Shown here one piece after another: positions 45-23,705 of a stretch of 37,120 bases of DNA. Positions within the stretch are counted from its first letter, which is position 1. Every line of letters starts with the position of its first letter. The notes under the pieces are model-generated. The model saw only the letters and a list, made by a program, of their open reading frames with translations, was not told where the DNA came from and made no database searches. The DNA comes from a virus. A program made the translations under genes and the position numbers. Location: positions 1 to 37,120 of IMG/VR virus record IMGVR_UViG_3300008050_000121; one strand, written 5' to 3'.

Positions 45-107
45 ATTACTATAGGAAACAACGTTTTCGACTCTGAATCACCCTCAACCGGAGCGGCTAC
101 GCGACGG

Positions 108-3007: not shown

Positions 3008-3010
3008 AGT

Positions 3011-7117: not shown

Positions 7118-7132
7118 GGGTTTTTCCTAGAG

Positions 7133-9175: not shown

Positions 9176-9190
9176 TGTTCACCTCCAAGT

Positions 9191-9221: not shown

Positions 9222-9248
9222 CTTCGGCAAGTCTAGTAAACAACGATC

Positions 9249-10286
9249 TTACGCTTTGATACGATCCCAAGGGACGCTCTTGTAGAGTCGCCCATCGTCA
9301 CCCTTCAAAGTACAGGTCTGCTTGCCCTTGGTCACCTTCGTGACTTCGTACTCAGCAAACTTTTTCTTCTTATGGGGTTTGGCTTGAACTGTATCACCCT
9401 TTTCGGGGATAGCGTTTTCATCATTATCTTCATCATCATCTTCATCATCATCATCGTCGCTGTCGTCATCATCGTCGTCATCACTTGATGCGGCTTCGAT
9501 GGCTGCAACAACCTCTCCCCAAGTGTCGAAGTCTTCAGCGTCAACACCGGCATCGTCTGCACGCTTCGTGAGAATCTCTTGAGCTTTCTCATCGTCGGCG
9601 TCGGCTTTTGCTGTCAAGCTTGCTAGGCTGTCTTCGTCGCTAGGTTCAACTTCATCATCATCGTCATCATCGTCTTCAACTTCGGCGGTTTCATCTTCAT
9701 CATCATCATCTTCGGTGTCATCTTCAACACCATCATCATCGTCGTCGTCGCCACCGTCGAAAGAACATTCCCCAGACCAAACGGAGTTGACTTGAGGATC
9801 GGGGTATTGCTTGGTTGCTTTACCTACCCAAGTTCGGAAGGTGAAATAGGGAGCGGCTTCAACCAAACCGTTCATAGCATCTTCAAGTTCATCGAAGTCC
9901 AAGTCTGAAGTGTCCAACCCAAGCTTTCGAAGTTCATTGAGTACCCACCCAAGATGGGACTCGAACGTGGGACGACTTTGACGGTTCGGTGTTTCACAAA
10001 GAGGTTCCGGTCCGATGCGAGTTTGAAGTCCTTCAATCTTCATCCCCTTGAACTCTTTTGGTGACACAACAACGGCTTGAGCGGCGAAAAAATACTTTCC
10101 TTTCATGTCGCCGGTTTTGTACTGCTTGAAGTAACAAGCAGAGAGGCGAGCAACGCCACCGGTAATACCAGCGGGTAGATCACCACCCTTTCCGAAATCG
10201 GTGTCTTCCCCACGAACCGACTTCATCGCTTTGTTACCGACTTTGCCCATTTGTGAGGCGAAACCACTTTTTTTGCTTTTTGCCAT
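9249..10286 (-). CDS. Asp-rich probable single-stranded DNA-binding protein
   Basis: The start at 10286 (345 residues, MAKSKKSGF) follows TTGGAGAAAG; an ATG 15 bases upstream contains the binding site itself. Residues about 1-175 are a beta-rich domain (GGVARLSACYFKQY, KYFFAAQAVVV, FTFRTWVG), after which long runs of Asp/Glu interrupt a short helical segment, and a small basic C-terminal domain (PHKKKKFAEYEVTKV) ends the protein. Acidic tails on an OB-like domain are typical of phage ssDNA-binding proteins, and the gene lies between recombinase and polymerase genes with its own terminator, as for an abundant product. The family itself was not recognised. Confidence 0.65.
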   Translation of the reverse strand: MAKSKKSGFASQMGKVGNKAMKSVRGEDTDFGKGGDLPAGITGGVARLSACYFKQYKTGDMKGKYFFAAQAVVVSPKEFKGMKIEGLQTRIGPEPLCETPNRQSRPTFESHLGWVLNELRKLGLDTSDLDFDELEDAMNGLVEAAPYFTFRTWVGKATKQYPDPQVNSVWSGECSFDGGDDDDDDGVEDDTEDDDDEDETAEVEDDDDDDDEVEPSDEDSLASLTAKADADDEKAQEILTKRADDAGVDAEDFDTWGEVVAAIEAASSDDDDDDDSDDDDDEDDDEDNDENAIPEKGDTVQAKPHKKKKFAEYEVTKVTKGKQTCTLKGDDGRLYKSVPWDRIKA

Positions 10287-10303
10287 GATAGCTTTCTCCA
10301 AGG

Positions 10304-10489
10304 TTAGGAATTGGTTTTGTCTTCTTTTTGCTTTTGGATGTAGTCGTAAATCTCTTTACGATGAACTGGTAACTCTTTTGGTGCGGTGATGCCAAGGCGA
10401 ACTTGATCCCCGCGAATTTCAATTAACATTACTTCTACGTCGTCGCCCAACATGATCGACTCATTACGTTTTCGTGTGAGTACTAGCAC
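10304..10489 (-). CDS. csrA: carbon storage regulator CsrA, phage-encoded
   Basis: The 61-residue protein is a clear, complete Csr[13 protein letters not shown] at the start, [10 protein letters not shown] (25-34) and [12 protein letters not shown] (36-47), including Leu4 and Arg44 of the RNA-binding face. CsrA dimers bind GGA in mRNA leaders and block or stabilise translation. The start is GTG at 10489, with GGAGG overlapping the stop of the recombinase gene. In a phage it could retune host carbon or biofilm regulation or control phage mRNAs. No RNA antagonist was proven, although GGA-containing loops occur in the structured RNA at 16.4-17.0 kb. Confidence 0.97.
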
Positions 10490-10490
10490 G

Positions 10491-11315
10491 TTATCCTCCT
10501 ATGAGTTTGCTGATCTTTTGGAACGTCGGATCAACTAGGACAGGTGGCAAAACTGTTTCCTTTGGTTTCCTGAACTTGATTTGATAAATCTCATGCGGTC
10601 CAATTCGCAAACAGTATTCCATTTTGCCGGTCTTCGTTTTGATCTTTACCTTTCCCTCTTTGGTTTTGGTTTGGGTTCGAATAAACGATTGGACTAGATA
10701 ATCACAGTTTGGATTCATCCAACCGACAACGCCTTTTGTGAGCGAACTGGTGACGTATGGCTTCAACTCGCCATCGTCGGACTCATCATCGAAAGCTCGC
10801 TCTTGTGCCAAGATCACGGCATGAATGCCCTCATCCGTAAGGTCTAGGAGTCGCTTGATCAACTCCCTTGTTTGTAAACTCGATTGCCCGTACTGGTCGC
10901 GGGTTGCCATCCCCCAGCTACCTTGTGGGGGAAGTTCGTCAAGTCCCAGAATCTCCGCTAGGGTCATCGCTTGTAGACTTGTCGCTGTATCGAGTACTAC
11001 AGATTTGTATCCGTTGTCCTTTGCATAGTCAACCAGTTCGACGATTTCCGTGGAATGTTTTAGTTCAACAAACGAAACGCCTTTCACATTTCGAACTGAC
11101 TTCGTTCCATCTTCAGCACCGATCAAGAGCAACGGTTTCGGGAAGTCGCACGCTAAGGTTGTCTTCCCGGTTCCCGAATGCCCGAACAAGCTGAACTTCA
11201 AGCCTTTGTTGGTCACCTTAGAAATGTCCTGTATGCGAGATAGAACGTCAACGTGTTTTGAACTCTTCCGCTTTTTGGTTTTCTTCTTAGCTGGCTGTTT
11301 GGATATTGCAGGCAT
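10491..11315 (-). CDS. Sak4-like RecA-fold ATPase (recombinase)
   Basis: The start at 11315 follows GGAGGATCAAA; the longer frame to 11357 lacks a site. The product has 274 residues with Walker [10 protein letters not shown] (45-53), Walker B SVVLDT (105-110) and, after a Lys-rich N-terminus, a compact RecA core ([24 protein letters not shown]). This fits the phage Sak4/nucleotide-binding AAA_24 group, which supports single-strand annealing or strand exchange together with an SSB. The gene is followed by csrA and the probable SSB gene and preceded in the operon by nuclease and UDG genes, a coherent recombination/repair set. Confidence 0.85.
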
Positions 11316-11496
11316 TTTGATCCTCCGTAAAAGTGACAGTGATTTTTCCCTCTTCAACTAGACCGAGAAAGCTCGGCCCAAGTTCCTCTTTGGCAGACTT
11401 TGAACTCACGTAAAACTCATCAGTAATTTGTACCTTGGTAGGAACTAGCATTTTTGAAACGTTCGCAACTAAGGCTTTTCGGTAGACGACTTGCAT
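11287..11496 (-). CDS. hypothetical protein, 69 aa
   Basis: The product has no recognised family: MQVVYRKALVANVSK, then a beta-like segment (KVQITDEFYVSS) and an acidic C-terminus ([13 protein letters not shown]). Its end overlaps the recombinase gene by 29 bases and contains that gene's ribosome binding site, and its start overlaps the upstream winged-helix gene by 28 bases, so all three are coupled. Confidence 0.65.
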   Translation of the reverse strand: MQVVYRKALVANVSKMLVPTKVQITDEFYVSSKSAKEELGPSFLGLVEEGKITVTFTEDQNACNIQTAS

Positions 11497-11828
11497 TTTT
11501 TACTCCCATACTTTTTGATAACCCAAACAGTGGCTTCGCATTTCATAGTAGTCTTTCGAGTACGACCCGAATCAACAACGTGGTCCCCTTGAACAAGTTC
11601 GCCACGTCGTGGTGTTTCTGAATCTGATTTTATTCCTAAATGTCTTTGTATCTCTTCGTCGGTCGCACCTACTTTGCCACACTTTTTTAGGTACTCTAAA
11701 ATCTTATGGCGTTGTGTTCCAATCCTTGGCAGGACTGCTAGTGCTGCGGCTTTGCTAGTTGGGGAACCCTTCACGTATGGTGCCCCAACGTAGCCGGTCG
11801 CATAATTGCAAGGTCCGATCTTTGGCAT
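11469..11828 (-). CDS. winged-helix DNA-binding protein
   Basis: The start at 11828 (119 residues, MPKIGPCN) follows GGGGAG and lies one base after the nuclease stop (TGATATG); longer frames run into that nuclease gene. Residues about 35-105 look like a winged helix: RHKILEYLKKCG, ATDEEIQRHLGI, then PRRGELVQGDHVV and a wing ending in VWVIKKY. Similar small proteins are common in phage early regions and may bind DNA near modification or recombination genes. It carries the recurrent MPKI N-terminus. Confidence 0.7.
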   Translation of the reverse strand: MPKIGPCNYATGYVGAPYVKGSPTSKAAALAVLPRIGTQRHKILEYLKKCGKVGATDEEIQRHLGIKSDSETPRRGELVQGDHVVDSGRTRKTTMKCEATVWVIKKYGSKKCKSSTEKP

Positions 11829-11829
11829 A

Positions 11830-12969
11830 TCATAGCTCCCCAAAAAGAGAATCGACCCGTACCAGTCCCGAACTGTCGCCACTATCGAGATACTTATCAA
11901 AGCCTGTATCCCTTCCTTCAGCGATAGGGTGCCAGAGTCCATAGGGCAACCGGTAATGCGTCGGTGTTTGGTTGGGAAAGCAACTCCCACGCAACGTGTA
12001 ATCGTACACGTCGTCGCTTGTGTGGTGGCAATAATCCCACCATTCGTAATCGTCGCAGAGGGTTTCCAACAGCGGGTTCAGTAGTTGGGTTTGGAACTTC
12101 TTTATGTCCCCCTTGGTGATGATCGCATTCCAACGGGCGAAAAAGTGTTCTGGGTTTTCCTTGATCGCTTGCCCAACTCTTGCATAGTAATCGCTCATTT
12201 TCTCAGCGGGCTTCTTAGCAGTTGCTTGGTGCGGTCTGTAGCTGAACTTCCCACCTGACAACGGGCGACGTATCACGTTGTAGCAGACGCCTTTAATCTG
12301 TTCTTTCCAGCCATGTTCTTTCGCTACCACGTCAAGAGCCGTTTGGTAGAGTAAAGTTTGCAAGTCGAACTGCAAACGTCGGACGATAGACTCTTCATCG
12401 AACTGACCCTTGGTTTTGTTCTCTTGCAACCAGATGAACTTTTTCTTTCCGCTCTTAACTAGATCAACGGAATCCATCTTGCCACGGAGGAAAACGGTGC
12501 GACCACTTGGTAACTTGTAGGGAACCTTAAAGGTATGCTCTTGTAGCAGCGGGGTTCTGTTCTTCACATGAGTTGACTTTTTCCAAAACTCAACATAGAT
12601 GGGGAACTGGTGTTTGCAAATGTTCATCCACTTTGAAATGTCGGCCTGTTCCAAGCGGTGGGCTTTGATCAACTTCCCAGAGTACTTTGCAAGTCGATCT
12701 TCCCAGTCGTTTTGTGAACCACCAGCGGCCCAGACCTCTTCGCATTCGTGCCACATAGAGCCGTATTCCATCCGGGCGTTAAAGCCTTCGTCAACTGTGA
12801 GGCCATCGATTACCCGAATGCGGAACCGCTCACGACAAAACAGATAGTCGTTTAGCAACGATTGGGTGACTCCATCTTTTTGTGGGCCTGCCCACGGTGG
12901 TGGCAGTTTCTTTTTCGCAAGCTTCGACTTTGCGAGTTCGGCCTTGATCGTTTTTCCTATGCTAGGCAT
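11830..12969 (-). CDS. PD-(D/E)XK superfamily nuclease (RecB/Cas4-like)
   Basis: The start at 12969 (379 residues) follows AAAGGA at 10 bases; it overlaps the gene upstream by 8 bases. Motifs of the PDDEXK_1/Cas4-like group are present: LLNDYLFCRERFR (39-50), GKMD (163-166; Asp166), QENK (182-185; Glu183, Lys185) and QTLLYQT (205-211). Phage members act as 5' or 3' exonucleases in recombination, usually beside a Sak-type annealing protein, as here. The Cys count does not show a complete Fe-S cluster, so it is closer to RecB-type exonucleases than to Cas4. Confidence 0.85.
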   Translation of the reverse strand: MPSIGKTIKAELAKSKLAKKKLPPPWAGPQKDGVTQSLLNDYLFCRERFRIRVIDGLTVDEGFNARMEYGSMWHECEEVWAAGGSQNDWEDRLAKYSGKLIKAHRLEQADISKWMNICKHQFPIYVEFWKKSTHVKNRTPLLQEHTFKVPYKLPSGRTVFLRGKMDSVDLVKSGKKKFIWLQENKTKGQFDEESIVRRLQFDLQTLLYQTALDVVAKEHGWKEQIKGVCYNVIRRPLSGGKFSYRPHQATAKKPAEKMSDYYARVGQAIKENPEHFFARWNAIITKGDIKKFQTQLLNPLLETLCDDYEWWDYCHHTSDDVYDYTLRGSCFPNQTPTHYRLPYGLWHPIAEGRDTGFDKYLDSGDSSGLVRVDSLFGEL

Positions 12970-13195
12970 TAAATTCATTCCTTTCGTGAGTAAGACTTGG
13001 ACCATAATAATCAAAAGCAAATAGATTGTCCCCAAAATTAAATTCTATTTCTTCTACTAATAGACTTTCTGAAGCGTAATTACCTTTTTCTATTACTAAG
13101 GCTACAGCTTCTTTTTTGGTTGCTACGCTAGTGATAACACCAGCTACCCCAAAACCACTGTACCCTTCATCGGTTTGGACTAAAAATGCTTTCAT
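12962..13195 (-). CDS. hypothetical protein in an AT-rich patch
   Basis: The 77-residue product (MKAFLVQTDEGYSGFG, then helix KKEAVALVIEKG and an acidic strand VEEIEFNFG) is not recognised. Its DNA is visibly richer in A and T, with codons such as AAT, TTA and ATA, than the genes on both sides, which suggests a separate origin. It ends inside the nuclease gene's start. The small alpha/beta layout resembles modulator or anti-defence proteins in size only. Confidence 0.65.
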   Translation of the reverse strand: MKAFLVQTDEGYSGFGVAGVITSVATKKEAVALVIEKGNYASESLLVEEIEFNFGDNLFAFDYYGPSLTHERNEFNA

Positions 13196-13204
13196 CTTTT
13201 TCCC

Positions 13205-13762
13205 CTAATTGAAAACTTTAACTAGGCTGTCCGAAAGTCGAACTACCTCACGTTGAATAGCCAACTGTTGCCGAGATTTATCAGCGGTCAACAGAGCGGC
13301 GGGGTGAACCATATCGGTGATGGTTGTCAGCGGGTCTTTCACCGCATAGGGGAACCACTTCATGGCAAGCTTGCCAACACAAACCACCAAGCTAGGGTTG
13401 GCGAGTTCGTAGACTTCAGAGAGTCGTTTGCTGCAACTCTTGATAGATTCCTCTGGTATCTCTTTGGTCACGGTTCCGTTGATCTTTGGAACACAACCAA
13501 CCAACTGAGTCCAGCCGATGGGTAGAGGTAGATGAACTTCACTAACACCAAGAGCTTCGCCTACAATTTCATCTAAGAGGATACCAGCGGGACCAACGAA
13601 CGGCTTGCCTAGTACGTCCTCACTTGCTCCAGGTGCCTCACCGATAAAAAGAACGTCACATGGCAAGTTGCCCTTGAAGAGTACAACGTTGTTACGAACT
13701 TGAGAGAGTTCGCAATCGGTGCAGTCGCACCATTTCGATTTGTGGTCTTTCCACTTACTCAT
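13205..13762 (-). CDS. family 4-type uracil-DNA glycosylase (Fe-S)
   Basis: The 185-residue protein has GEAPGASED (41-49), GKPFVGPAG (52-60) and the HPAALL motif (153-158) of the uracil-DNA glycosylase superfamily. Cys14 and Cys17 (CTDC) with Cys90 and Cys110 match the four 4Fe-4S ligands of family 4 enzymes. It removes uracil, or a related pyrimidine, from DNA. In this phage it lies with resolvase and recombination genes; beside a thymine-hypermodification protein it might also police unmodified or intermediate bases, which is inference. Confidence 0.9.
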   Translation of the reverse strand: MSKWKDHKSKWCDCTDCELSQVRNNVVLFKGNLPCDVLFIGEAPGASEDVLGKPFVGPAGILLDEIVGEALGVSEVHLPLPIGWTQLVGCVPKINGTVTKEIPEESIKSCSKRLSEVYELANPSLVVCVGKLAMKWFPYAVKDPLTTITDMVHPAALLTADKSRQQLAIQREVVRLSDSLVKVFN

Positions 13763-13806
13763 GGTTGAATCCTCCGATGATAGTTTTCTGGGAAAAGGTA
13801 ATAATA

Positions 13807-13884
13807 GAGGCCCTGCCGGATTCGAACCGGGGATTCCTAGCTCTTCTCTTTACTAGGCGTGTTTCCTATTACACTACCGGGCCT
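13807..13884 (-). tRNA. tRNA-like gene with 12-base anticodon loop
   Basis: On the minus strand a cloverleaf is visible: acceptor pairing AGGCCC/GGGCCT with one mismatch below it, TA at the usual 8-9 position, D-arm GTGT/ACAC, anticodon stem CCTAG/CTAGG, and a T-arm CCGG-TTCGAAT-CCGG. The anticodon loop is 12 bases (TAAAGAGAAGAG) instead of 7 and contains a tandem AAGAG duplication; the total of 78 bases is 5 above the normal 73 without CCA. No U is found at the expected position 33 and no CCA is encoded. The amino acid cannot be assigned. It may be a pseudogene or a variant tRNA. Confidence 0.6.
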
Positions 13885-13886
13885 AA

Positions 13887-14093
13887 TCACTCTGACATTT
13901 TGACTCCACCAACTCGACGCGAGGTTTCGGAGATTTGCCTTCCACCTGTCGCACCGTTCCGGCTTTTGTTCCGATCCTTGCAAGCATGGCAGATTCGGTC
14001 GCCGTAATGTTTCGACAATCTCATCTTGCCACAGTGCCCAAGGCATATCCTCATCTTCTCTTCTTCAACTACTGGGACTTTGAATGATGCCAT
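13887..14093 (-). CDS. small Cys-cluster putative zinc protein, 68 aa
   Basis: ATG at 14093 overlaps the stop of the RuvC-like gene (TAATG); longer frames lie inside that gene. Residues 17-38 hold CLGHCGKM and RICHACK, a four-cysteine zinc-ribbon pattern common in tiny phage and bacterial proteins. The C-terminus is basic. It probably binds zinc and perhaps nucleic acid. It ends 3 bases before the tRNA-like gene. Confidence 0.75.
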   Translation of the reverse strand: MASFKVPVVEEEKMRICLGHCGKMRLSKHYGDRICHACKDRNKSRNGATGGRQISETSRRVGGVKMSE

Positions 14094-14578
14094 TATTTCC
14101 AACTCCGTCTTGCGTACTCCGCGAGCAAGAGAGCATCGCAAAGTTCTAGTTGACGTGCTTTGGTTTCTTTCCACAGTTCGCAGTTCGGGAACATTTGCTG
14201 AGCGATTTCTCGCAGCCGTTCTTTTTTGTCCTTCCCTTTTTCCTTCTTCTTTTTTTGAATGATGCCCATGTACTTCATCCACTCTTGAGGCAACGGATTC
14301 ACGAAGGGAACCTTGGCAGCGGTCAATCCCATGATCAACTTGCCATAGCCGAACCCAAACGTGAAAGCACTGGTAGCACTTGAACCGTGGAAGGCACTCA
14401 CTCTTTCAACTGCAACCCGTACAATCGATGGGCCGCGTTTGATCGACTCGATAAGCTCCCATAGTTCGGGGTCGGTGTCAGGCATTCGGTGCAATGTGAT
14501 TTTCTCGCCCTTGAGAAAGACGATTCCACCTTGCCCTCCGGGGTCGATTCCCACGTACCTATTATTGATCTTCGGCAT
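14093..14578 (-). CDS. RuvC-like Holliday junction resolvase
   Basis: The start at 14578 (161 residues, MPKINNRY) follows GGGAG at a good distance. RNase H-fold residues are in place: Asp12 in GIDPG (10-14), Glu58 in AVERV (56-60) and Asp148 in LCDALLLAEYA (147-156). RuvC-type enzymes cut four-way junctions, and phage forms resolve branched DNA before packaging. A Lys-rich loop (about 108-121) replaces the usual segment before the last motif. This is the first gene of the leftward early operon, directly behind the minus-strand promoter at 14.6 kb. Confidence 0.88.
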   Translation of the reverse strand: MPKINNRYVGIDPGGQGGIVFLKGEKITLHRMPDTDPELWELIESIKRGPSIVRVAVERVSAFHGSSATSAFTFGFGYGKLIMGLTAAKVPFVNPLPQEWMKYMGIIQKKKKEKGKDKKERLREIAQQMFPNCELWKETKARQLELCDALLLAEYARRSWK

Positions 14579-14614
14579 TGCTGACTCCCAAGATGAACTT
14601 GTCTCACTTCCTTT

Positions 14615-14623
14615 ACTATACCA
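14615..14623 (-). promoter_or_regulatory. extended -10 promoter for the leftward early operon
   Basis: On the minus strand TGG-TATAGT forms an extended -10 element (TATAGT at 14620-14615), about 37 bases before the RuvC start. No good -35 hexamer stands at 17 bases, which is normal for extended -10 promoters. Confidence 0.55.
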
Positions 14624-14771
14624 GATATGAAAAACCAGAAAGCTCAAAACTATTTGCGGGGCACAAATTGTCGATAGTTTTGGTGAACTACGTTTTGGTT
14701 ACCTTCCCGTTTTAATGGTTTGACAACTTGTTTCATCGCATCAAGACGCAGCAAGCCGCAAATATTCTCAG

Positions 14772-14924: not shown

Positions 14925-15122
14925 ATGGTACTCCGTATTTCCACATCTCTAATGGATACGTCAGAGTTTTACGATCCGAATGTTGATGGTGCTGAGTTCA
15001 ACATCACACCACCCAAGAGGAAAAAACGACGAACGAATCAAGTTGTCAAGCCATTAAAACCAACTAAGCGTTTATCGCTTGGTGTCACCCTAGCAATGGG
15101 AGAGTTCAAATGCCAAAAGTGA
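14925..15122 (+). CDS. small basic hypothetical protein, 65 aa
   Basis: The first rightward gene has a strong AAGGAGGG site 7-14 bases upstream. The product has a short acidic N-terminal part and a Lys/Arg-rich middle (PPKRKKRRTNQVVKPLKPTK), suggesting nucleic-acid contact. It overlaps the ParB-like gene by 13 bases. No family is recognised. Confidence 0.75.
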   Translation: MVLRISTSLMDTSEFYDPNVDGAEFNITPPKRKKRRTNQVVKPLKPTKRLSLGVTLAMGEFKCQK

Positions 15123-16192
15123 AATCTAAATCGGGTCGGGAAGTTCTTTATCATATGGTCACAACAAACCTCTGTGACCTGAACTCGAAACAGGCGAAAG
15201 AGATTCTAGGGTGGGAACCTTCCGATGATGGCGAAAAGATCAGCGGGCAAAAGGTGGTCATGCACAACAACATCACCAACCGCCCGATCTACCAGTCCAC
15301 GATAGATACTCTTTCCCAGGAAATTTTAAGGGGCCGTTGGCAACTCAACGGGGAGCCTATCATCATCGGTCGAACTGGTTTGGTTCTCAACGGGCAGCAT
15401 ACCCTTCTAGCCTTGATCGCTGCGGAAGCTGAACGTCAGCAAAACAAAGAGAAGTACGAAGAGTACTGGACCCGCCCCTGTAAGATCAACAAGGTGGTAG
15501 TTTTCGGTATCGGTGAAGTCGATCAAGTCGTCAACACGATGGATACCTGCAAACCTCGATCCTTGGCCGATGTGCTATATCGATCTAAGCTTTTCGCTGA
15601 CCTTCCCAAGGGACCACGAAAGAAGGTCGCCAAGATTACCGACTACGCTGTTCGGACTCTTTGGGAACGTACTGGTGCCGGTCTGGACGCATTCTCTTTA
15701 CGTCGTACCCATTCCGAATCGCTGGACTTTGTAGAGCGACATTTGAAGTTGCTCGATTGCGTAGACTTGGTTTACCAACTGGATCAAAACGGTGGCAAGC
15801 TCACGGCGTTTCTACCGCTCGGCCATTGTGCCGGGTTGCTGTACCTCATGGGAAGTTCAACTAGCAACTCATCACGCTATGCTGACCAACATGACGAATC
15901 CGTTTTGACTTGGCGAATGTATAAAAAGGCCAAGTCGTTTTTTGTTGATCTTGCCAATGGTGACAAGGGACTCTTCCCGATCTGTCAGGTCATCGCTGAC
16001 CTAGTTGAAGCTCACGGTGTTCTGCCAAAAGCTGACCGGGCCGCCATCATTCTCAAGGCGTGGTTGTTGTGGTCCCAAGGTAAGCCAGTGAAGTTGACCA
16101 AGATTCGACCCGACTACGATGTTCAAAACGGCGAACGGGTTTTGATCGATCAACCGGTTGTGGGTGGCATCGATCTAGGGGTTGGTGGGTAG
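15110..16192 (+). CDS. ParB/sulfiredoxin-fold-like protein
   Basis: The 360-residue protein has a ParB-like N-terminal core: IYQSTIDTLSQEIL (60-73), WQLNGEPIII (77-86) and LVLNGQHTLLAL (91-102). The 'NGQH' box corresponds to the 'GxHR'/'DGQHR' box of ParB-type nucleases and CTPases. The C-terminal two thirds are helical (FLPLGHCAGLLYLM, AIILKAWLLWSQG) with no second known domain. Phages use such proteins as nucleases, DNA-binding regulators or kinase-like enzymes; none can be chosen here. It starts MPKV and is followed by the large RNA region. Confidence 0.7.
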   Translation: MPKVKSKSGREVLYHMVTTNLCDLNSKQAKEILGWEPSDDGEKISGQKVVMHNNITNRPIYQSTIDTLSQEILRGRWQLNGEPIIIGRTGLVLNGQHTLLALIAAEAERQQNKEKYEEYWTRPCKINKVVVFGIGEVDQVVNTMDTCKPRSLADVLYRSKLFADLPKGPRKKVAKITDYAVRTLWERTGAGLDAFSLRRTHSESLDFVERHLKLLDCVDLVYQLDQNGGKLTAFLPLGHCAGLLYLMGSSTSNSSRYADQHDESVLTWRMYKKAKSFFVDLANGDKGLFPICQVIADLVEAHGVLPKADRAAIILKAWLLWSQGKPVKLTKIRPDYDVQNGERVLIDQPVVGGIDLGVGG

Positions 16193-16333
16193 TTCACCAA
16201 AACAGCCCGGTGGCAGTTAATTGCTACCTTGCACATGGACATTATACCCCTTATGGTGCATATCCAACCCCCGAAATATGTCAACTATTTCCCACATTCC
16301 AAGGGGAATTATCATCCCTATGGGGCACATTTA

Positions 16334-16342
16334 TGGTACAAT
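16334..16342 (+). promoter_or_regulatory. extended -10 element before the large RNA
   Basis: TGG-TACAAT (TACAAT at 16337-16342) is an extended -10 like the one at 14615-14623. Transcription would start near 16349, at the left end of the structured region. The bases 16193-16333 hold a small hairpin after the ParB-like gene (GGTGGCA/TTGCTACC, 16209-16228, no T-run) and no coding frame I can support. Confidence 0.45.
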
Positions 16343-16348
16343 GAATGT

Positions 16349-17034
16349 AGTGAAAGGAATCACGAAGGGAAAGCGGTCGGAACCGACAGGGCCTAAAAAC
16401 CTGCGGAGTGTTCCGATGGGGCGAGGCTGGAAGCCTCCACCGAAAGGAAGTCCCCCGCGACTGAGACTCATCTCGGAACCCGCCACAGCCGAACTAGGTT
16501 TGGGCTTACAAAATCCCCCAACGGATACATGAATCCGGGGGACGATGCCCCGCTGAAATCCTAGCGGCCCCAGGTGGCAATAGGGAACCGGGACCAAATG
16601 AGGCCGAAAGCTTACTCAGCCACTCCTCAAATGTGGAGCCAGTTTTTAGTTCATTGCAATGAACGGAAACGGCAAGTTTCAACCGTCAACGTCTTGACCA
16701 TAGACTGATACGGTTGTTCCTCAAGCATACTGACGACTGTAAATCGTCATGCCTAAAACCCGTTAGTGAGAACGACCGGGTTACTACCGAAGCGTAAAGT
16801 TAAGAGGGAACACTAGCAAGCCGAGTCGCCCTAGTCGTTTGTCCTTTTCTAGAGGTATTCGATCCAAGATGATCGGACTTGTTTCGGGTGGTGCGTTTGC
16901 GTCAGTATGTTTTAGGAACGAAGTCAAACAGGTGGCGAGGTGATTTGAGAATCTGGGAGTCAGACGATCTTTATCTAGCCGTGATACCGTCGCCCTTCCC
17001 GGTTCAGCCGGGAAGAGAGTCACCTGTTTGTTTA
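16349..17034 (+). ncRNA. large structured noncoding RNA (family unassigned)
   Basis: About 690 bases have no credible gene but dense self-complementarity. Pairs seen include GTTCCGA 16410-16416 with TCGGAAC 16473-16479 enclosing GAGGC/GCCTC (16423-16437); TCCCCC 16514-16519 with GGGGGA 16537-16542 around GGAT/ATCC; CCGCT/AGCGG 16550-16567; GTTCAT/ATGAAC 16649-16664; TGACGA/TCGTCA 16731-16749; CGATC/GATCG near 16860-16875; and a 3' domain closed by a 10-bp stem, CAAACAGGTG 16925-16934 with CACCTGTTTG 17021-17030, holding an 8-bp hairpin CTTCCCGG/CCGGGAAG 16995-17015. Size, phage location and lack of genes recall giant phage RNAs such as GOLLD and ROOL; membership is untested. Confidence 0.7.
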
Positions 17035-17058
17035 ATTCAACTAGAAAGAAAGGACAAA

Positions 17059-17247
17059 ATGAAGATTTCAAAAAAACGAACTCTGACAACCGCCGAAAAG
17101 AAAAATGCCAATTGGATTTTTCATTCGTCGAGCTTGAGCCGGAAAGGGACAAGCTACGTTGTCCAACACGACACAAACACAGGTGTCAAGCGTTACTTAA
17201 CAAGTTCAAACGGGAAGAGTATCATCCGATACTCACGCCCCGCATAG
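17059..17247 (+). CDS. small basic hypothetical protein, 62 aa
   Basis: The start at 17059 follows AAAGGA by 4-5 bases; the longer frame upstream runs through the structured RNA and is rejected. The product is Lys/Ser-rich, with beta-like segments (KGTSYVVQHD, GVKRYLTSS, KSIIRYSRP). No family is recognised. It is the first of a run of tiny rightward genes behind the large RNA. Confidence 0.7.
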   Translation: MKISKKRTLTTAEKKNANWIFHSSSLSRKGTSYVVQHDTNTGVKRYLTSSNGKSIIRYSRPA

Positions 17248-17260
17248 AAAGGAAACCAAA

Positions 17261-17476
17261 ATGAAGAAACCAAATAATGCTGTCCACGTTTTTGATCTTG
17301 ACCCCGAAGCTATGCGAGTCGCTGGTGTACCAGTGATGGTCGAATTACGGGATGACAACTTTAAGGTTGTCGGTAGGGTCAACACGGTCCTCGACGTTGA
17401 AGAAATGCGTAAAGCAGTTGCCGCTTGGGACGCTGCTTGGGAAGCCAAATGTACTCGTGACTGTGGAGGAAGCTAG
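17261..17476 (+). CDS. hypothetical protein, 71 aa
   Basis: AAAGGAAACC precedes the ATG. The acidic product begins MKKPNNAVHVFDLDPE, has beta-like VPVMVELRDDNFKVVG, and ends in an amphipathic helix (EEMRKAVAAWDAAWEAK). No family is recognised. It lies 13 bases after the previous gene and 1 base before the next. Confidence 0.7.
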   Translation: MKKPNNAVHVFDLDPEAMRVAGVPVMVELRDDNFKVVGRVNTVLDVEEMRKAVAAWDAAWEAKCTRDCGGS

Positions 17477-17477
17477 T

Positions 17478-17753
17478 ATGAACTATCCAAATATGGAAGC
17501 CACGTTGAAACGTACCACGTTGATCGACGACGATAAACGTTATCGTATCTACTGGCCTTCAACCGGTACGATCATTTTCATTCCAGCTTTCAACTTGAAC
17601 CGTCGCCATGATGGGTGTTACGAATACCACCACGATGATCGAACGTTCGAAGTTGAGGGTATCCCAACTCCTTGGGATGGAAAGGAAATTGCAATCACAA
17701 TTGAACCTGTCGAACCTCCCTCTTGGAGGTTGGACTTGAGAAAGGGTAGATAG
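17478..17753 (+). CDS. hypothetical beta-rich protein, 91 aa
   Basis: The start at 17478 follows GGAGGAAGCTAGT; a longer frame from 17352 overlaps the previous gene and is rejected. The product is rich in beta-type and aromatic residues (DKRYRIYWPSTGTIIFIPAF, YEYHHDDRTFEVEG). No family is recognised. The next gene starts directly at its stop codon. Confidence 0.7.
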   Translation: MNYPNMEATLKRTTLIDDDKRYRIYWPSTGTIIFIPAFNLNRRHDGCYEYHHDDRTFEVEGIPTPWDGKEIAITIEPVEPPSWRLDLRKGR

Positions 17754-17939
17754 ATGAAACGTGCAGAACACAAGTGGGAACATCCTGAGAAAGGGACTGG
17801 CAACTGTGGGAAGTGTGGCAAGCCTTGTGGCGAACCACGTCCCGGTGCGGTTGTCTATCATGGGAAGTGTACCTTCCCGGTTCCAGTCGAACCTTATGAG
17901 GGTCGGCATGAGAACTTTTTCAATCAACCAACTGAGTAG
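17754..17939 (+). CDS. small Cys-rich putative zinc protein, 61 aa
   Basis: Cys18, Cys21 and Cys25 (CGKCGKPCGE) with Cys39 (HGKC) could bind zinc. The rest is Pro/Glu-rich. The ATG follows the previous TAG directly, so re-initiation is likely, with AAAGGG 8-13 bases upstream inside the preceding gene. The role is unknown. Confidence 0.7.
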   Translation: MKRAEHKWEHPEKGTGNCGKCGKPCGEPRPGAVVYHGKCTFPVPVEPYEGRHENFFNQPTE

Positions 17940-17953
17940 AAAGGAAGTGAATT

Positions 17954-18262
17954 ATGACATTTACAAAATCACCCTTTGTTGAAGCTCTTGAGAACGGCGA
18001 TAACTTCCTCCTTGATGAGGTTGATGAGCCGGGACCGAAGTACCTCACAAAACGGATCGTTGATCGTAAGCTTACATCGATGCCACCATCCGGTTATCGA
18101 TGCTTGACGGTTGACGGTTACACGAAACGAAGTGGTGCCCCAACTCACACGATGGTGATGTTGGAAGGCGAGAGCCGCTGGCGACGTGTTTACTTTTGGT
18201 GCTTCTCGAATTGTTCAACTGAGTTCATCAAGGTCAAAGGTGAGAACCTAATCATTCGATAG
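17954..18262 (+). CDS. hypothetical protein, 102 aa
   Basis: AAAGGAAGTG lies before the ATG. The product begins MTFTKSPFVEALENGDNFL and has a basic, beta-rich second half (ESRWRRVYFWCFSNCSTEF, VKGENLIIR). No family is recognised. It sits in the uninterrupted rightward run of small genes before the AAA+ ATPase. Confidence 0.7.
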   Translation: MTFTKSPFVEALENGDNFLLDEVDEPGPKYLTKRIVDRKLTSMPPSGYRCLTVDGYTKRSGAPTHTMVMLEGESRWRRVYFWCFSNCSTEFIKVKGENLIIR

Positions 18263-18271
18263 GAGGAAACC

Positions 18272-18412
18272 ATGCGAACCAAATTTGTCTGGGGAGAAAC
18301 AAGTATGCCCGTGGGTGGTCGAACTGACCCCCGCGAGGCATTTACCGGCGACGTTGCTGCCGAATACGAAGAGTGGCTTGACGACGTTGACGAAAACGAA
18401 ACTAGCAAATAG
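18272..18412 (+). CDS. small acidic hypothetical protein, 46 aa
   Basis: This frame fills the gap between the 102-aa gene and the AAA+ gene. ATG at 18272 has AGGAGGAAA 4-12 bases upstream, and the TAG is 13 bases before the next start. The product (MRTKFVWGETSMPVGG ... EYEEWLDDVDENE) has an acidic tail. The strong binding site and codon use like its neighbours support a real gene. The function is unknown. Confidence 0.7.
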   Translation: MRTKFVWGETSMPVGGRTDPREAFTGDVAAEYEEWLDDVDENETSK

Positions 18413-18425
18413 ATAGGAGGGCACA

Positions 18426-19991
18426 ATGCCCAAGCTAACAGATTACAAAGAACTGGTTGAAACCATGCACTTGATCCTTGAGGATCATGGGAGGTGTTCG
18501 ACTTCGACCATGCAACACGATTTGCAATGCCGCATCGGCTACAAAAACGCCGGTCGCGTCAAGTTCATGCTAAGTCTGCTTGAGGAAACTCAGCAAGTGA
18601 AGAAACGTGGAAACAAGTGGTATTTTGTCAAGCCTGAGGATCGGGGAGTAAACTCAACCGGTTCATCCGACTCATCTGGTTGGGATGAAGCTGAGTTCCG
18701 GCGAAGGTTTGATCGTGAGGTTCAAAAAACTGAAGCCGCTGAAGCGGTAGCGAACCTTAAACAAGATACCATCGACTCGTTACGGAAAAACGTTTCCGAT
18801 CTTGAGAGCGATATGGCAGACGTTCGGGCTGAAGCTAAGAACATGGCTGGACAGGTTCATACTGTCCAGATCAAAAATGGAAAACGAGTTCTACGAAAGG
18901 TCAAAGCGGCCTTTCATACGAAGTTCGCCAAGCTCTTGTTCTTTGCTCAGAAACGGATGAACACTTTCATCTACGGACCAACCGGTTGTGGCAAGACGTT
19001 CATCTGTGAACAACTTGCAAGCTGTCTTGTGTTCACCGTCGATAGTGGTGACTACAAAGTTGGTGACCCTTTACCCTTCTACTCAATCTCCTGTACTTCG
19101 GGAATGAGTGAGGGCAAGCTTGAGGGTCGTCGATTACCCGGCAAGGGTGGCGACTTCGAATATACGATTAGTGAGTTCGTCAAGTGCTTCGAGAACGGAG
19201 GGGTGTTCCTCTTAGATGAACTTGATGCTTGCGACCCGAATGTTCTGATGATAATCAACTCGGCTCTGTCGAATGGTTACATGACGCTTGCCAATCGTAG
19301 CGAAAACCCGGTGGCTCATCGCCATCAAGATTGTGTCGTACTCGCAACGGCCAACACGTTGGGGACTGGTGCTGATCGTCAGTACTCAGGACGCAACAAG
19401 CTGGACGGTGCAACGATGGATCGATTCAGCGTGGCGAAAGTCAAGCTTGATTACGATCCGAACGTTGAAGCTCAACTCATTCACCTGAAGCCTTTGCTCA
19501 AGCTTTGCTTGAAGATTCGCAAGGCTATCGTGGAGCATGGTTTGGAAAGGGCCATGAGTACCCGCACCATGTTGGACTCTCAAAAGTCTATCGTGGATGG
19601 ACTACCCAATGCCTACGTCGAAATCTTCGGTGGGCGTGACGATGGTTTCTTTAGCGGGTGGCGTGAAGATGAGCATCAACAGATACTTGCCAAGGTGCCT
19701 GAGCTTCACCGATTGGCAGAGTACGATGGTGGTGCTACTGAGGAAACTTCCGAAACTGAAGCAACTTCTGAGGCTACCGAAACCACGAACTTCGAAATGC
19801 CTGAACTCATTGGTTCTGCAAAACAGATCAAATGGGCTAAGAACCTACGAAAGGACTGGTTCAAAAAGGGTTCGAAGACTTGTGAGTATGTCGTGAGTCG
19901 AAACCCGGAATGCAAATTCTGGATTGACAATCGGTTCAACATGAATGCGATTTTTCAAACTACCAAAACCGCTCTAGGTTTTGATAGCTAA
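18426..19991 (+). CDS. MoxR/CobS-type AAA+ ATPase
   Basis: The 521-residue protein has an N-terminal winged-helix-like segment (about 5-70), a coiled coil (about 90-145) and an AAA+ core: Walker A GPTGCGKT (184-191), Walker B GGVFLLDELDA (258-268), sensor 1 Asn310 in VVLATAN and an arginine finger Arg333 in MDRF. The inserted loop and spacing match the MoxR/CobS group, which remodels or loads metal into partners with VWA-domain proteins. A VWA-like protein is encoded next. The last 70 residues are a separate domain (SAKQIKWAKNLRKDWFKK). It starts MPKL. Confidence 0.85.
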   Translation: MPKLTDYKELVETMHLILEDHGRCSTSTMQHDLQCRIGYKNAGRVKFMLSLLEETQQVKKRGNKWYFVKPEDRGVNSTGSSDSSGWDEAEFRRRFDREVQKTEAAEAVANLKQDTIDSLRKNVSDLESDMADVRAEAKNMAGQVHTVQIKNGKRVLRKVKAAFHTKFAKLLFFAQKRMNTFIYGPTGCGKTFICEQLASCLVFTVDSGDYKVGDPLPFYSISCTSGMSEGKLEGRRLPGKGGDFEYTISEFVKCFENGGVFLLDELDACDPNVLMIINSALSNGYMTLANRSENPVAHRHQDCVVLATANTLGTGADRQYSGRNKLDGATMDRFSVAKVKLDYDPNVEAQLIHLKPLLKLCLKIRKAIVEHGLERAMSTRTMLDSQKSIVDGLPNAYVEIFGGRDDGFFSGWREDEHQQILAKVPELHRLAEYDGGATEETSETEATSEATETTNFEMPELIGSAKQIKWAKNLRKDWFKKGSKTCEYVVSRNPECKFWIDNRFNMNAIFQTTKTALGFDS

Positions 19992-20008
19992 ATTTAACCA
20001 AACCCTCG

Positions 20009-20022
20009 CCGGGTTCGCCCGG
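20009..20022 (+). promoter_or_regulatory. UUCG-capped hairpin between the AAA+ and VWA-like genes
   Basis: CCGGG-TTCG-CCCGG forms a perfect 5-bp stem with a very stable tetraloop, followed by GGTAGGAGG, the ribosome binding site of the next gene. There is no T-run, so it is more likely an mRNA-processing, stability or translation-control element than a terminator. Confidence 0.55.
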
Positions 20023-20039
20023 TGGGGTAGGAGGATTCT

Positions 20040-20894
20040 ATGAGACATTTAATCAATGAAGAAAACAAGACTGAGATTTTCAGCTTCGACTCTCAACATC
20101 AAGTTATCGAGTACACGAAGGATAGCTTGTTCGAGGTTCGCAAGGAATCGTTCGTGGGTGAGAATTTCAACTCTTGGGATGATGTGAGGGCGAAAGCCAA
20201 ATCTTGCTGGTCGGAAGGACTAGCGACGATTGAGGATTTCACCCGTCGCCTGATCGAAGAGGAAATCCCAGAAATCAAGAGTATGAAACGTCGAACGGAG
20301 TTCGATTGGGATGAGGGCGACGAATGCGATTGGGATCGCATGATGCAAGGTGAAGCATTCATGCGAAAAACCCATCGTGAGAACTCGACTGGTGCGACTG
20401 AGATAACAGTCATCACCGATACCACAACGGCTTGTGGTGTTCCTCACAAGGATGTGCTTTGGCGTGGGGCGGCGGCTCTTGCTCTCACTAAGATTTTGGA
20501 GGACAAGGGTTACAGTGCTGAGTTGTGGGTAGTGAATGGGTCGAACCTGTTTTCTGGAAAGTCCCACGGTGTTTGTACTGCTTGCTGTCTCAAACGGTGT
20601 TCTGATCCGCTCGACATTAGCACGTTGTGCAATACGGTTGCTGGTTGGTTCTACCGCTCAGCAACGTTCACCTTGTTGCAAACCATTTGCGACAAACAGG
20701 GTGAGGCAATTGCCGGGGGATACGGTCATTGCTACTCGCCAACGATGGCAGACTTGGATTTGATCAACCGCGACGTTAATCGAATCTACTCAACTGGTTC
20801 GGTGAGTTTTGAAGGTGCCCTTACCAAGGTCACCCACGAACTCAAACGGATCGCTGACAATCTGCCGATGTTCGATCAGGACAACGATAGCTAA
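20040..20894 (+). CDS. probable VWA-like partner of the MoxR-type ATPase
   Basis: The 284-residue protein has an N-terminal helical part and, from about residue 120, a Rossmann-like start resembling a VWA domain: strand EITVITDTTTACG (121-133, Asp127 in a degenerate D-x-T-x-T site), helix WRGAAALALTKILEDKGY (141-158) and strand SAELWVVNG (159-167). MoxR-family ATPases typically work with adjacent VWA proteins, so context supports the reading, but the MIDAS is imperfect. Cysteines near 180-200 (CTACCLKRC) may bind metal. A strong TAGGAGG site precedes it. Confidence 0.6.
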   Translation: MRHLINEENKTEIFSFDSQHQVIEYTKDSLFEVRKESFVGENFNSWDDVRAKAKSCWSEGLATIEDFTRRLIEEEIPEIKSMKRRTEFDWDEGDECDWDRMMQGEAFMRKTHRENSTGATEITVITDTTTACGVPHKDVLWRGAAALALTKILEDKGYSAELWVVNGSNLFSGKSHGVCTACCLKRCSDPLDISTLCNTVAGWFYRSATFTLLQTICDKQGEAIAGGYGHCYSPTMADLDLINRDVNRIYSTGSVSFEGALTKVTHELKRIADNLPMFDQDNDS

Positions 20895-20958
20895 CCCTTT
20901 GCGTGTTACCCGTCATCGTGGCGGGGGGCACTTTCATACTTCAACGAAAGGAAACATC

Positions 20959-21357
20959 ATGTTTTCAAAATACGAAACGGAAAGTCGTCATGCCATCGAA
21001 GTTTACCTTGAGGACGGGATGGTGTTCGATACGTCAGGACGAAAATTGCCTTGTCTTGTTCCTCACGTCAACGAGGTTTTCCACAACCCTAGCGATTTCG
21101 AGTTGCTAGTAAACTTCAAAGCTTCCGGCTCCTACGATAGTGGTGATATGGTGACGCCACCCCATCACGAAGAGGACCGAGAATTGGTTTCGGTGGAGCT
21201 AGAAGAAACTCACTATGGTCCTCTTTGGGCTGACTTCAAAGAGGGAAAGCTTGAGCGTCACCATCAGAAAATCGAGTTGCCTGTTGCAACTCAAGAGTTC
21301 CTCTTCGGGTTCTACCTTGAGGACGTTTACAATGTTGAAATCGAAAGGGAGGTGTAA
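20959..21357 (+). CDS. hypothetical acidic protein, 132 aa
   Basis: The start at 20959 follows GAAAGGAAAC; the longer frame from 20809 lies in the preceding gene. The product is acidic and beta-rich (AIEVYLEDGMVFDTSG, FELLVNFKASGSYDSG, ATQEFLFGFYLEDVY). The 64-base leader contains CCCG ... CGGG pairing and several GGs. No family is recognised. Confidence 0.7.
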   Translation: MFSKYETESRHAIEVYLEDGMVFDTSGRKLPCLVPHVNEVFHNPSDFELLVNFKASGSYDSGDMVTPPHHEEDRELVSVELEETHYGPLWADFKEGKLERHHQKIELPVATQEFLFGFYLEDVYNVEIEREV

Positions 21358-21358
21358 T

Positions 21359-21682
21359 ATGAGCGACACAAAACGAATCGATGAGCTCCGAGAGCTTTAC
21401 AAAACGATAGCCGCGTTTGGGGAACGAAAGGCCCCCAGTGACAAGTTCATGATGTTCATGAACCCCGGCAACAAGCTGGTGATGATGCTTGGCGAACCTG
21501 TCAAGTTCCGGCTTTGTGAGGGTGGGGTACAAGGGTTTTTCCGACTCCCAGAGGATTGGGTGTCACTTCATGAACCTCTTGGTGAGGATGATTCGGTGAC
21601 GGTTGCTCGACAATTGGAAACGGATCGGACGATCAAGATCACTTCGTACTCATCCAAGACACCAGAAAGCGAGGTTGTGTGA
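21359..21682 (+). CDS. hypothetical protein, 107 aa
   Basis: The start at 21359 is 1 base after the previous stop and has GGGAGGTG upstream. The product has an acidic/helical N-terminus (DTKRIDELRELYKTIAAFG), a Met-rich beta segment (KFMMFMNPGNKLVMML) and a polar C-terminus. No family is recognised. The next gene overlaps its stop. Confidence 0.7.
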   Translation: MSDTKRIDELRELYKTIAAFGERKAPSDKFMMFMNPGNKLVMMLGEPVKFRLCEGGVQGFFRLPEDWVSLHEPLGEDDSVTVARQLETDRTIKITSYSSKTPESEVV

Positions 21683-21879
21683 TGAACGTTCGAAGTGCTG
21701 CCAAGCTGATTGGGTGTTCTGCCAAAACGGTGGGCACCCAAATCAGAAGGGGGAAGATTACTGCTACGAAGATTTCTACGCCTCTCACCGCTGCGGGTTT
21801 CGTTTACGATGTGAGCCGCAAAGAGGTCAACCGATACATTCGGGATACCAAGGTGAGAGGTAACCAACGAAAAGGCTAA
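21682..21879 (+). CDS. small helix-turn-helix protein (excisionase/MerR-like)
   Basis: ATG at 21682 shares its first base with the preceding TGA; a GTG three bases earlier is possible. The 65-residue basic product has a helix-turn-helix of the HTH_17/excisionase type: VRSAAKLIGCSAKTVGTQIRR followed by a short wing and KEVNRYIRD. It likely binds DNA as a regulator. No integrase is nearby, so a recombination-directionality role is unlikely. Confidence 0.8.
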   Translation: MNVRSAAKLIGCSAKTVGTQIRRGKITATKISTPLTAAGFVYDVSRKEVNRYIRDTKVRGNQRKG

Positions 21880-21892
21880 CGAAAGGAAAACC

Positions 21893-22237
21893 ATGAATAC
21901 TCTAATTGAAAAGAGCGACAACTGGTTGAAGGTTCCCAAGGTGAAGAATCGACCGGCAACAATGAACTGCATTCTCTACTTCGGTGAGAATGCGGTTCAT
22001 GTTGTCCCCTTGGACCCAAGTGCCGAAGACTACGAAAAGGCACGTGACAAGGATCGTAAGTATCCCGCTCGACTCGCCAAGCGACTCAAGGCGGGGAAGG
22101 TGGAACAGGCCGAAGCTCGAAAGGCTTACGCCAAAGAGTACGCTGAGAATGACCGCTTGCGAAAGGTTCATGCGAAAGCAATAAAAGCTCACAAGCGACT
22201 GAACAAGCTCACCTCCAAAACGATTGGGGGTGAGTGA
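21893..22237 (+). CDS. Lys-rich hypothetical protein, 114 aa
   Basis: AAAGGAAAACC precedes the ATG. The N-terminal half is beta-like (CILYFGENAVHVVPLD); the C-terminal half is a long Lys/Ala/Arg helix (RLAKRLKAGKVEQAEARKAY). It may contact nucleic acid. No family is recognised. Its TGA overlaps the next ATG. Confidence 0.7.
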   Translation: MNTLIEKSDNWLKVPKVKNRPATMNCILYFGENAVHVVPLDPSAEDYEKARDKDRKYPARLAKRLKAGKVEQAEARKAYAKEYAENDRLRKVHAKAIKAHKRLNKLTSKTIGGE

Positions 22238-22428
22238 TGTTTAGAGTCGAAGCAATCGAGAAACGGCAGACAGACACCAACGGCGTAGAAGCTACTGAGG
22301 TGGTGTCTGTTGAAGTGTTCGAAGAGAAAGAAGCGGCCTATGCTGAGGCCGTTGAACTAGCAAAGGACTGTCACAAAGTCAACATCTGGTCCTTGGATGC
22401 AACCATTCAGGAGGTGAAAGGTGAGTGA
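22237..22428 (+). CDS. hypothetical acidic protein, 63 aa
   Basis: ATG at 22237 shares a base with the preceding TGA, with GGGGGTG upstream. The product pairs beta-strands with an Ala/Glu helix (FRVEAIEKRQ, EVVSVEVFEEKEAAYAEAVE, VNIWSLDATIQEV). No family is recognised. The last 8 bases overlap a GTG-started gene. Confidence 0.7.
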   Translation: MFRVEAIEKRQTDTNGVEATEVVSVEVFEEKEAAYAEAVELAKDCHKVNIWSLDATIQEVKGE

Positions 22429-22591
22429 TTATCAAAACGAACTCAAAGCTCTACAGAGGAAACACGGTCGGCATTTTCCAACCTTGGGACAAGCTCTTGC
22501 TTGGGATAAGGAAAACCCATCGCTTGCTGAACTCAAGAGGATCAACAAAGAAAGAGAGGCAAACGATGCCGAAAATAAAACGAAAACGTAA
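22421..22591 (+). CDS. small hypothetical protein, GTG start, 56 aa
   Basis: GTG at 22421 has AGGAGGTGAAAG directly upstream at good spacing. The frame ends with TAA at 22589-22591, overlapping genes on both sides by 8 and 26 bases. The product is a charged helix (SDYQNELKALQRKHGRHFP, LAELKRINKEREANDAENK). Without it the stretch 22429-22565 would be empty, which is unlike this genome. The function is unknown. Confidence 0.7.
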   Translation: MSDYQNELKALQRKHGRHFPTLGQALAWDKENPSLAELKRINKEREANDAENKTKT

Positions 22592-22826
22592 GGGCAAAAA
22601 AATTCTGCCACCAAGTGCCGCCACGCCCGGTGGTGACACAAAAGCCGCAACCCGGCAATCGGTCAAGGACCGAACGCAAACGGTTTCGGTCACCAAGGTA
22701 GTGTTCCATCTTTCCGATGGAAGTGAAATCGAGGAAACCTACCCTACGGTCATCCACTGGTCGGAAGGGAAACGTGGTTTTGAACTCAGTGGTAAAGTTT
22801 ACCCGGACGAGGTGAAACATGGTTAA
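22566..22826 (+). CDS. small basic/beta hypothetical protein, 86 aa
   Basis: The start at 22566 follows AGAGAGG within the previous gene. The product begins MPKIKRKRKGKK, then has a flexible Thr/Ala part and a beta-rich end (SVTKVVFHLSDGSEIEETYP, KRGFELSGKVYPDEV). It shares the MPKI N-terminus with several others. No family is recognised. It overlaps the next gene by 8 bases. Confidence 0.7.
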   Translation: MPKIKRKRKGKKILPPSAATPGGDTKAATRQSVKDRTQTVSVTKVVFHLSDGSEIEETYPTVIHWSEGKRGFELSGKVYPDEVKHG

Positions 22827-23166
22827 GCACGAATTTTCTACGGATACGGTTACCGATATTCGGAACCATTTTGAAGTCCTGAAGCTGAAAGCAGAAGCCG
22901 CTTTTGGCAAGGCCGTTTTGGATAAGGCCGATGTGACACCTACGGATGATCTGGCTCAAGCTGCAAGAGAGGCAGCAATGAATATCAGATGCCTTGAGAA
23001 CATTCTCAACGTGTACTTCGATTCGGCCTACGAACCGGCTGAACCTGAAATGGTTGAGCCTACCAACTGCAACCCCAATGGGCACAATCTTGGGTGCCCT
23101 TGTGTGGACTGTCTTCGTTTCAACGTCGAGGATGAGGTGGAGGATGTGACTTTCACCCGCGAGTAA
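22819..23166 (+). CDS. hypothetical helical protein with Cys cluster, 115 aa
   Basis: Residues about 1-70 are helical (FEVLKLKAEAAFGKAVLDKA, AREAAMNIRCLENILNVYF), then an acidic linker and CNPNGHNLGCPCVDC near residues 84-98, a possible metal site. GACGAGG lies before the ATG inside the preceding gene. No family is recognised. Confidence 0.7.
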   Translation: MVKHEFSTDTVTDIRNHFEVLKLKAEAAFGKAVLDKADVTPTDDLAQAAREAAMNIRCLENILNVYFDSAYEPAEPEMVEPTNCNPNGHNLGCPCVDCLRFNVEDEVEDVTFTRE

Positions 23167-23169
23167 CGA

Positions 23170-23190
23170 GAAGGCCCCATTTGAGCCTTC
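23170..23190 (+). terminator. weak hairpin after the 115-aa gene
   Basis: GAAGGC (23170-23175) pairs with GCCTTC (23185-23190) over a 9-base loop, 3 bases after the gene's stop. A TTTTT run occurs only at 23218-23222, after a second weak GGG/CCC pairing. It may be a partial terminator or an RNA-stability hairpin. Confidence 0.4.
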
Positions 23191-23238
23191 CAAGGATTGA
23201 GGGTGTTCCGACTCCCTTTTTCCTCAGGAGGGCTTAAA

Positions 23239-23511
23239 ATGGACTCTCAGAACCCTTATTTGGAGAACCTAGCTATGGAAGCTACAACAGAATACGAAAT
23301 GCTCTTGATCGATAAGGTCAAGAGCCTGAGAGCGGAAGCTGAACTCTTGCACCAGGAGAAAGCTCAACTTGGTGTAAAAGTCGAAAAGCAACAACAGTTG
23401 CTCAATGAACTCAGACGGGACATTCGGAAAGAGAAAGAATCGGTTGCAAACCTCTTGGAGAGGCTTGCCGAGAAAGACAAAATGCTTGACCTGTTAGGAG
23501 GTGACGAATGA
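23239..23511 (+). CDS. coiled-coil protein, 90 aa
   Basis: The start at 23239 follows AGGAGGGC. After a short N-terminus the product is one long coiled coil (LLIDKVKSLRAEAELLHQEK, QQQLLNELRRDIRKE, LLERLAEKDKMLDLL). It probably oligomerises. Its TGA overlaps the next ATG (ATGA). No function can be assigned. Confidence 0.75.
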   Translation: MDSQNPYLENLAMEATTEYEMLLIDKVKSLRAEAELLHQEKAQLGVKVEKQQQLLNELRRDIRKEKESVANLLERLAEKDKMLDLLGGDE

Positions 23512-23705
23512 GCGACAAACGAGAATTGAATCCTATCGAGGTACTTATCATGAGTGAGGCCATGAAGGTATTGTGTAAATACCTTCCTCATGTCCATAGC
23601 GACGATGTGAGGATTGAGAAAGCGGTTCGCAAGCTTGAAGCCACACTCAATGAATTGGATGAGTTGGATACTACGTTGGGCAAGGAAGCAATGGAAAGAA
23701 ACTAG
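23508..23705 (+). CDS. small helical hypothetical protein, 65 aa
   Basis: The gene is coupled to the coiled-coil gene by a 4-base overlap with GGAGGTG upstream. The product is helical (PIEVLIMSEAMKVLCKYLP, KAVRKLEATLNELDELD). No family is recognised. It may form a complex with the product of the gene before it. Confidence 0.65.
   Translation: MSDKRELNPIEVLIMSEAMKVLCKYLPHVHSDDVRIEKAVRKLEATLNELDELDTTLGKEAMERN

Follow-up and report, generated by a model that had tools for sequence, protein, structure and literature searches.

Organization of the locus

The DNA analysed here, called the window throughout, is the complete IMG/VR virus record IMGVR_UViG_3300008050_000121 (37,120 bases, positions 1 to 37,120). 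Its genes run leftward from 1 to 14,647, rightward from 14,925 to 23,700, and then leftward again through the end of the record. The first leftward block includes genes for a primase, a DNA polymerase A, a Sak4-like protein, a PD-(D/E)XK nuclease, a UDG and a Holliday junction resolvase, and it also contains the second-largest gap of a crude gene call (472 nt, 11358-11829). A tRNA-like match lies at 13808-13883 on the minus strand (Rfam tRNA, 38.9 bits); it has a short T stem and was not called by ARAGORN. The rightward block holds the gene-free stretch that is the subject of this work, preceded by a ParB-like gene and followed by small genes, a gene for a CobS-like AAA ATPase and a DUF7192 gene (Table 1). 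The label ParB-like is our reading of an NGQH-type motif in the predicted product, which ends at the limit of its match to the homologous proteins of related phages, most of which extend C-terminally for 45-200 aa more. The operon of the CobS-like AAA gene is named early on the strength of its gene content; its small first gene has a codon score of 0.03 per codon.

Table 1. Positions of the genes and predicted elements in the window and in the loci of related phages (L numbers)
Feature	Source	Positions	Strand	Remarks
ParB-like gene (phrog_5931)	window	15110..16192	+	360 aa; upstream neighbour of the gene-free stretch
Extended -10 promoter element TATGGTACAAT	window	16332..16342	+	match to TRTGNTAYAAT
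5' half of the putative RNA	window	16349..16700	+	several hairpins, moderate structure; z -2.45
Strongest long-range helix, 5' arm	window	16714..16735	+	pairs with 16900-16921
Strongest long-range helix, 3' arm	window	16900..16921	+	pairs with 16714-16735
Closed multibranched 3' domain	window	16925..17030	+	10-bp perfect closing stem; adjoins operon gene 1
Operon gene 1, small	window	17059..17247	+	62 aa; Shine-Dalgarno AGAAAGGA upstream
CobS-like AAA ATPase gene (phrog_249)	window	18426..19991	+	marker for finding relatives
DUF7192 gene	window	20040..20894	+	directly 3' of the AAA gene
boxA-like TCTTTGANAA	relatives	L006 6797, L087 6930, L090 6690, L091 6622, L092 6299, L094 6295, L108 6713, L023 4857 and 4967		leader 5' ends
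Example leaders with boxA-like element and predicted hammerhead	relatives	L006 6797-7217, L092 6299-6623, L094 6295-6787
Predicted type III hammerheads	relatives	L006 7165-7217, L092 6574-6623, L094 6736-6787, L090 6765-6822, L009 7711-7762, L011 7406-7455, L013 6225-6274		1-bp stem II, loop I pseudoknot; 5' of CobS-like gene

Coding potential and promoter signal

An initial annotation had described about 690 bases lacking a plausible gene, and this description was borne out: no credible gene was found in the 866 nt between the stop of the ParB-like gene at 16192 and the start at 17059 (16193-17058), a stretch longer than any other gap that the crude gene call leaves in the record. Three long mechanical ORFs inside the gap scored -0.02 to -0.07 per codon, as against +0.10 for the upstream gene, and the codon usage of the phage was sought without success in the long frames of the interval. 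A small ORF at 16416-16532 (38 aa) was rejected as a gene on a codon score near zero. The region has a G+C content of 52%, compared with 47% for the record.

The extended -10 element noted earlier just before the gene-free region was likewise confirmed. It is the sole full match to its consensus in 37 kb, where 0.15 are expected. No good -35 sequence is listed for it, and no convincing terminator was found at the 3' end of the putative RNA.

Predicted folding of the putative RNA

Folding was scored relative to dinucleotide shuffles. The interval 16349-17045 on the plus strand has a minimum free energy of -247 kcal/mol (z -3.2), and the excess resides mainly in the 3' half: the 341 nt from 16700 to 17040 reach z -4.23, with none of 100 shuffles folding as well. 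The strongest long-range helix, which had escaped the earlier reading, scores 43 compared with a shuffle mean of 28 and a maximum of 36 (n=60), and most of its pairs have a probability near 1. The 3' domain (16918-17036) has z -3.94, with one of 200 shuffles as good, and the pairs of its closing stem have probabilities of 0.97-1.0. The base pairing described in the initial annotation is confirmed: folding exceeds that of shuffles, and the closed 3' domain with its 10-bp stem (16925-16934/17021-17030) is upheld. Most of the smaller stems, however, do no better than shuffled sequences.

The reverse strand has the same excess (z -3.5), and some tiles within called genes fold with a greater one (33601-33950, minus strand, z -7.0; 21701-22400, plus strand, z -6.2). 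Because the reverse strand is equal and several coding tiles equal or surpass the region, folding energy alone is no proof of an RNA or of its strand. Masking of the Shine-Dalgarno sequence of gene 1 by 16837-16853 is not claimed, since 10 of 500 shuffles gave an equally strong complement and stronger ones lie upstream of most other genes in the window.

Comparison with known RNA families and search for homologues

The Rfam library, which contains the GOLLD, ROOL, OLE and intron families, was searched at gathering scores and then, with permissive filters on 901 bases, at E values up to 10. No family reached its gathering score in the region, and up to E 10 only chance-level matches to unrelated families appeared. 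The proposal that the region might belong to GOLLD or ROOL found no support, the covariance models of both being unmatched at gathering score and up to E 10; the same outcome was obtained for OLE and for group I/II introns. An intron was also rejected on position, the region lying between two complete genes with no interrupted gene.

Queried by blastn, the region had no match to any phage record and, among plasmids, only 34-nt chance matches in Rhizobium. Comparison with the loci of relatives by nhmmer, blastn and Smith-Waterman alignment yielded only chance matches in coding DNA, and two covariance models, R1 for the 3' domain and R2 for the central domain, found the window alone among these loci and about 60 relative phage records; single-sequence models being weak tools, diverged homologues may be missed. 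Scanning 2.9 million viral contigs for exact motifs gave either nothing or chance matches in coding DNA, scans of viral contigs with single proteins did not find a near relative, and a ParB alignment had no match in 84,980 prokaryote species genomes. Close relatives of the phage are absent from the collections searched.

The same intergenic position in distant relatives

Distant relatives were collected via alignments of the CobS-like and ParB-like proteins; identity of the ParB-like protein to its counterparts reaches 46-48%. The order of ParB-like gene, spacer, small genes and CobS AAA gene is common to the window and the relatives, and the putative RNA lies at the corresponding position, between the ParB-like gene and the CobS operon. 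A gene similar in size to the DUF7192 gene follows the AAA gene in the relatives as well. The spacer itself varies strongly: it often harbors a noncoding leader RNA, in other relatives carries no RNA, and in some holds only a short leader (L085, L089, L097 and L112) or small genes.

At least seven relatives (L006, L087, L090, L091, L092, L094 and L108) have the boxA-like TCTTTGANAA behind a promoter at the start of the spacer, often followed by AACGGC and then by a body of highly variable length. In five of these seven (L006, L090, L092, L094 and L108) a predicted hammerhead ribozyme stands directly before gene 1, and the leaders bounded by the two elements measure about 150-500 nt. A pattern scan of the fetched loci gave 13 hammerhead matches on the operon strand and none in reverse-complemented, reversed and complemented copies of 2.57 Mb. 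Seven aligned examples show strong covariation: 98% of cells are paired, and nine pairs, located in stem I, stem III and the pseudoknot, have changes at both partners. The Rfam search detected the L006 hammerhead as a match to Hammerhead_3 (E 1.4e-4, below the curated cut-off) and missed that of L094. On these pattern controls, the covariation and the L006 match, we regard the predicted ribozymes of the relatives as real. Hammerheads whose 1-bp stem II is held by a loop I pseudoknot have been described (Perreault 2011, PMC3088659); this kind fits the main ribozyme group of the relatives and is not present in the window.

Further hammerheads, with an ordinary stem II, were seen 5' of CobS-like genes in L008 (6474-6524), L040 (5234-5284), L042 (6252-6304 and 7599-7649) and L060 (5621-5678), and a type II hammerhead (Rfam RF02276, 40.1 bits) occupies an intergenic gap of the CobS-type operon in L023 (6782-6845). 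A palindrome of the form AATAG-(C-rich)-CTATT, possibly an operator, precedes the leader promoter in L090 (6636-6655), L102 (6564-6583), L106 (6581-6600) and L112 (6971-6990); in the window it occurs only in partial form, near 16268-16289.

The putative RNA of the window shares with the boxA-hammerhead leaders its position, its noncoding character, a promoter just upstream and a structured module 15-30 nt 5' of gene 1, its closed 3' domain standing at the place where the relatives carry the hammerhead. It differs from them in that their bodies have no sequence or covariance-model match to it. The boxA-like TCTTTGANAA does not occur in 16349-17058, the pattern scan for hammerheads was negative in the window, and no Rfam hammerhead appeared in the region up to E 10. 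Hammerhead cores with one mismatch in the window were discarded as being without matching stems. Lacking both boxA and hammerhead, the putative RNA lies outside the leader family of the relatives.

Discussion

In rRNA operon leaders, boxA recruits antitermination factors. By analogy, the boxA-like element of the relatives may do likewise, and its combination with a hammerhead suggests an antiterminated leader RNA that releases itself from the transcript. The gene-free region of the window is probably a genuine, though unproven, noncoding RNA. We lean, with reasonable rather than high confidence, toward reading 16349 to about 17034 as a structured noncoding 5' leader RNA of the early operon that is probably cut from the mRNA. 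Transcription, use of the plus strand, processing and function of this RNA are what we infer; the evidence consists of the lack of coding, the promoter motif, the excess of folding, the gene order and the hammerhead leaders of the relatives. The RNA would start from the extended -10 promoter in the spacer behind the ParB-like gene. Its fold would comprise a 5' half rich in hairpins, a central domain enclosed by a ~20-bp long-range helix and, ending 28 nt 5' of the first start codon of the operon, a 3' domain that is compact and closed. Since no terminator intervenes, the operon mRNA would run on past the leader, which, to judge from the hammerhead leaders of the relatives, would probably be separated from the mRNA, with host RNases that attack the long helices as the likeliest agents. 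Most likely the RNA is a leader whose 3' module is something other than a hammerhead, taking the place of the leaders that the relatives carry.

The region might instead encode a new class of large, stand-alone, trans-acting RNA in the manner of GOLLD and ROOL, perhaps abundant and oligomeric, its proximity to the operon being incidental; we hold this to be possible but unlikely. A size near 690 nt, a promoter motif of its own, the closed 3' domain and the lack of an Rfam family would suit such an RNA. GOLLD and ROOL are themselves examples of large RNAs carried by phages (PMC12286853), and RNA-seq of ICP1 revealed, at the lysis cluster, an abundant transcript of ~800 nt from orf-less space that its discoverers likened to both (PMC7567579). 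With GOLLD the putative RNA has in common that it is phage-borne, large and gene-free, with a closed 3' domain and a tRNA-like gene (13808-13883) within 2.5 kb, and with ROOL that it is phage-borne and several hundred nucleotides long; it differs from GOLLD in having no Rfam match and in its position at the early-operon promoter, and from ROOL in having neither an Rfam match nor homologues that could be found. As in ICP1, a large noncoding stretch interrupts a dense phage genome, but the ICP1 transcript was observed by RNA-seq and at the lysis cluster, whereas the RNA proposed here is a prediction from sequence and has no blastn match to any phage record. Against a stand-alone RNA speak the failure to find a homologue in other phages, GOLLD and ROOL being widespread, the missing terminator at the 3' end and the use of this position for leader RNAs by the relatives, which makes an early-operon leader our first choice over a stand-alone giant RNA. 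A related version would make the RNA the only member so far of a new class of large noncoding phage RNAs, freed from the early operon transcript and active in trans, as an alternative to the boxA-hammerhead RNAs that the relatives have at this position; it appears to us similarly doubtful.

Explanations that dispense with an RNA are less likely. A neutral or decayed spacer, such as a remnant of small genes or of a C-terminal extension of the ParB-like protein, with folding due to composition and luck, would agree with the end of that protein at its match limit when most relatives are 45-200 aa longer, with the equal folding scores of some coding tiles and with the fruitless search for homologues; we nevertheless consider it improbable, given a long-range helix above all 60 of 60 shuffles, z -4.2 over 341 nt (0 of 100 shuffles), the lack of a codon signal in every frame and a promoter motif at the head of the region. 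More improbable still is a site acting in double-stranded DNA through its inverted repeats, whether a replication origin, a partition site of the ParB-like protein or a cluster of operators. The equal folding of both strands, the ParB-like neighbour and a turn of the cumulative GC skew near 15-16 kb would suit such a site, but the skew turns where gene direction changes, at about 14.8 kb, the region contains no iterons or repeated boxes, two G-U pairs in the strongest helix would be mismatches on the opposite strand, and the relatives have RNA elements at the same position.

If the region is indeed a leader RNA, the position where the CobS-type early operon begins would be one at which uncultivated phages exchange differing noncoding RNAs: some have no RNA there, others have boxA-hammerhead leaders ranging from about 150 to 500 nt, and the window phage has a structured RNA of ~690 nt. 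This raises the question of whether large phage RNAs serve the operon downstream of them, through antitermination or stability, or the infected cell as a whole.
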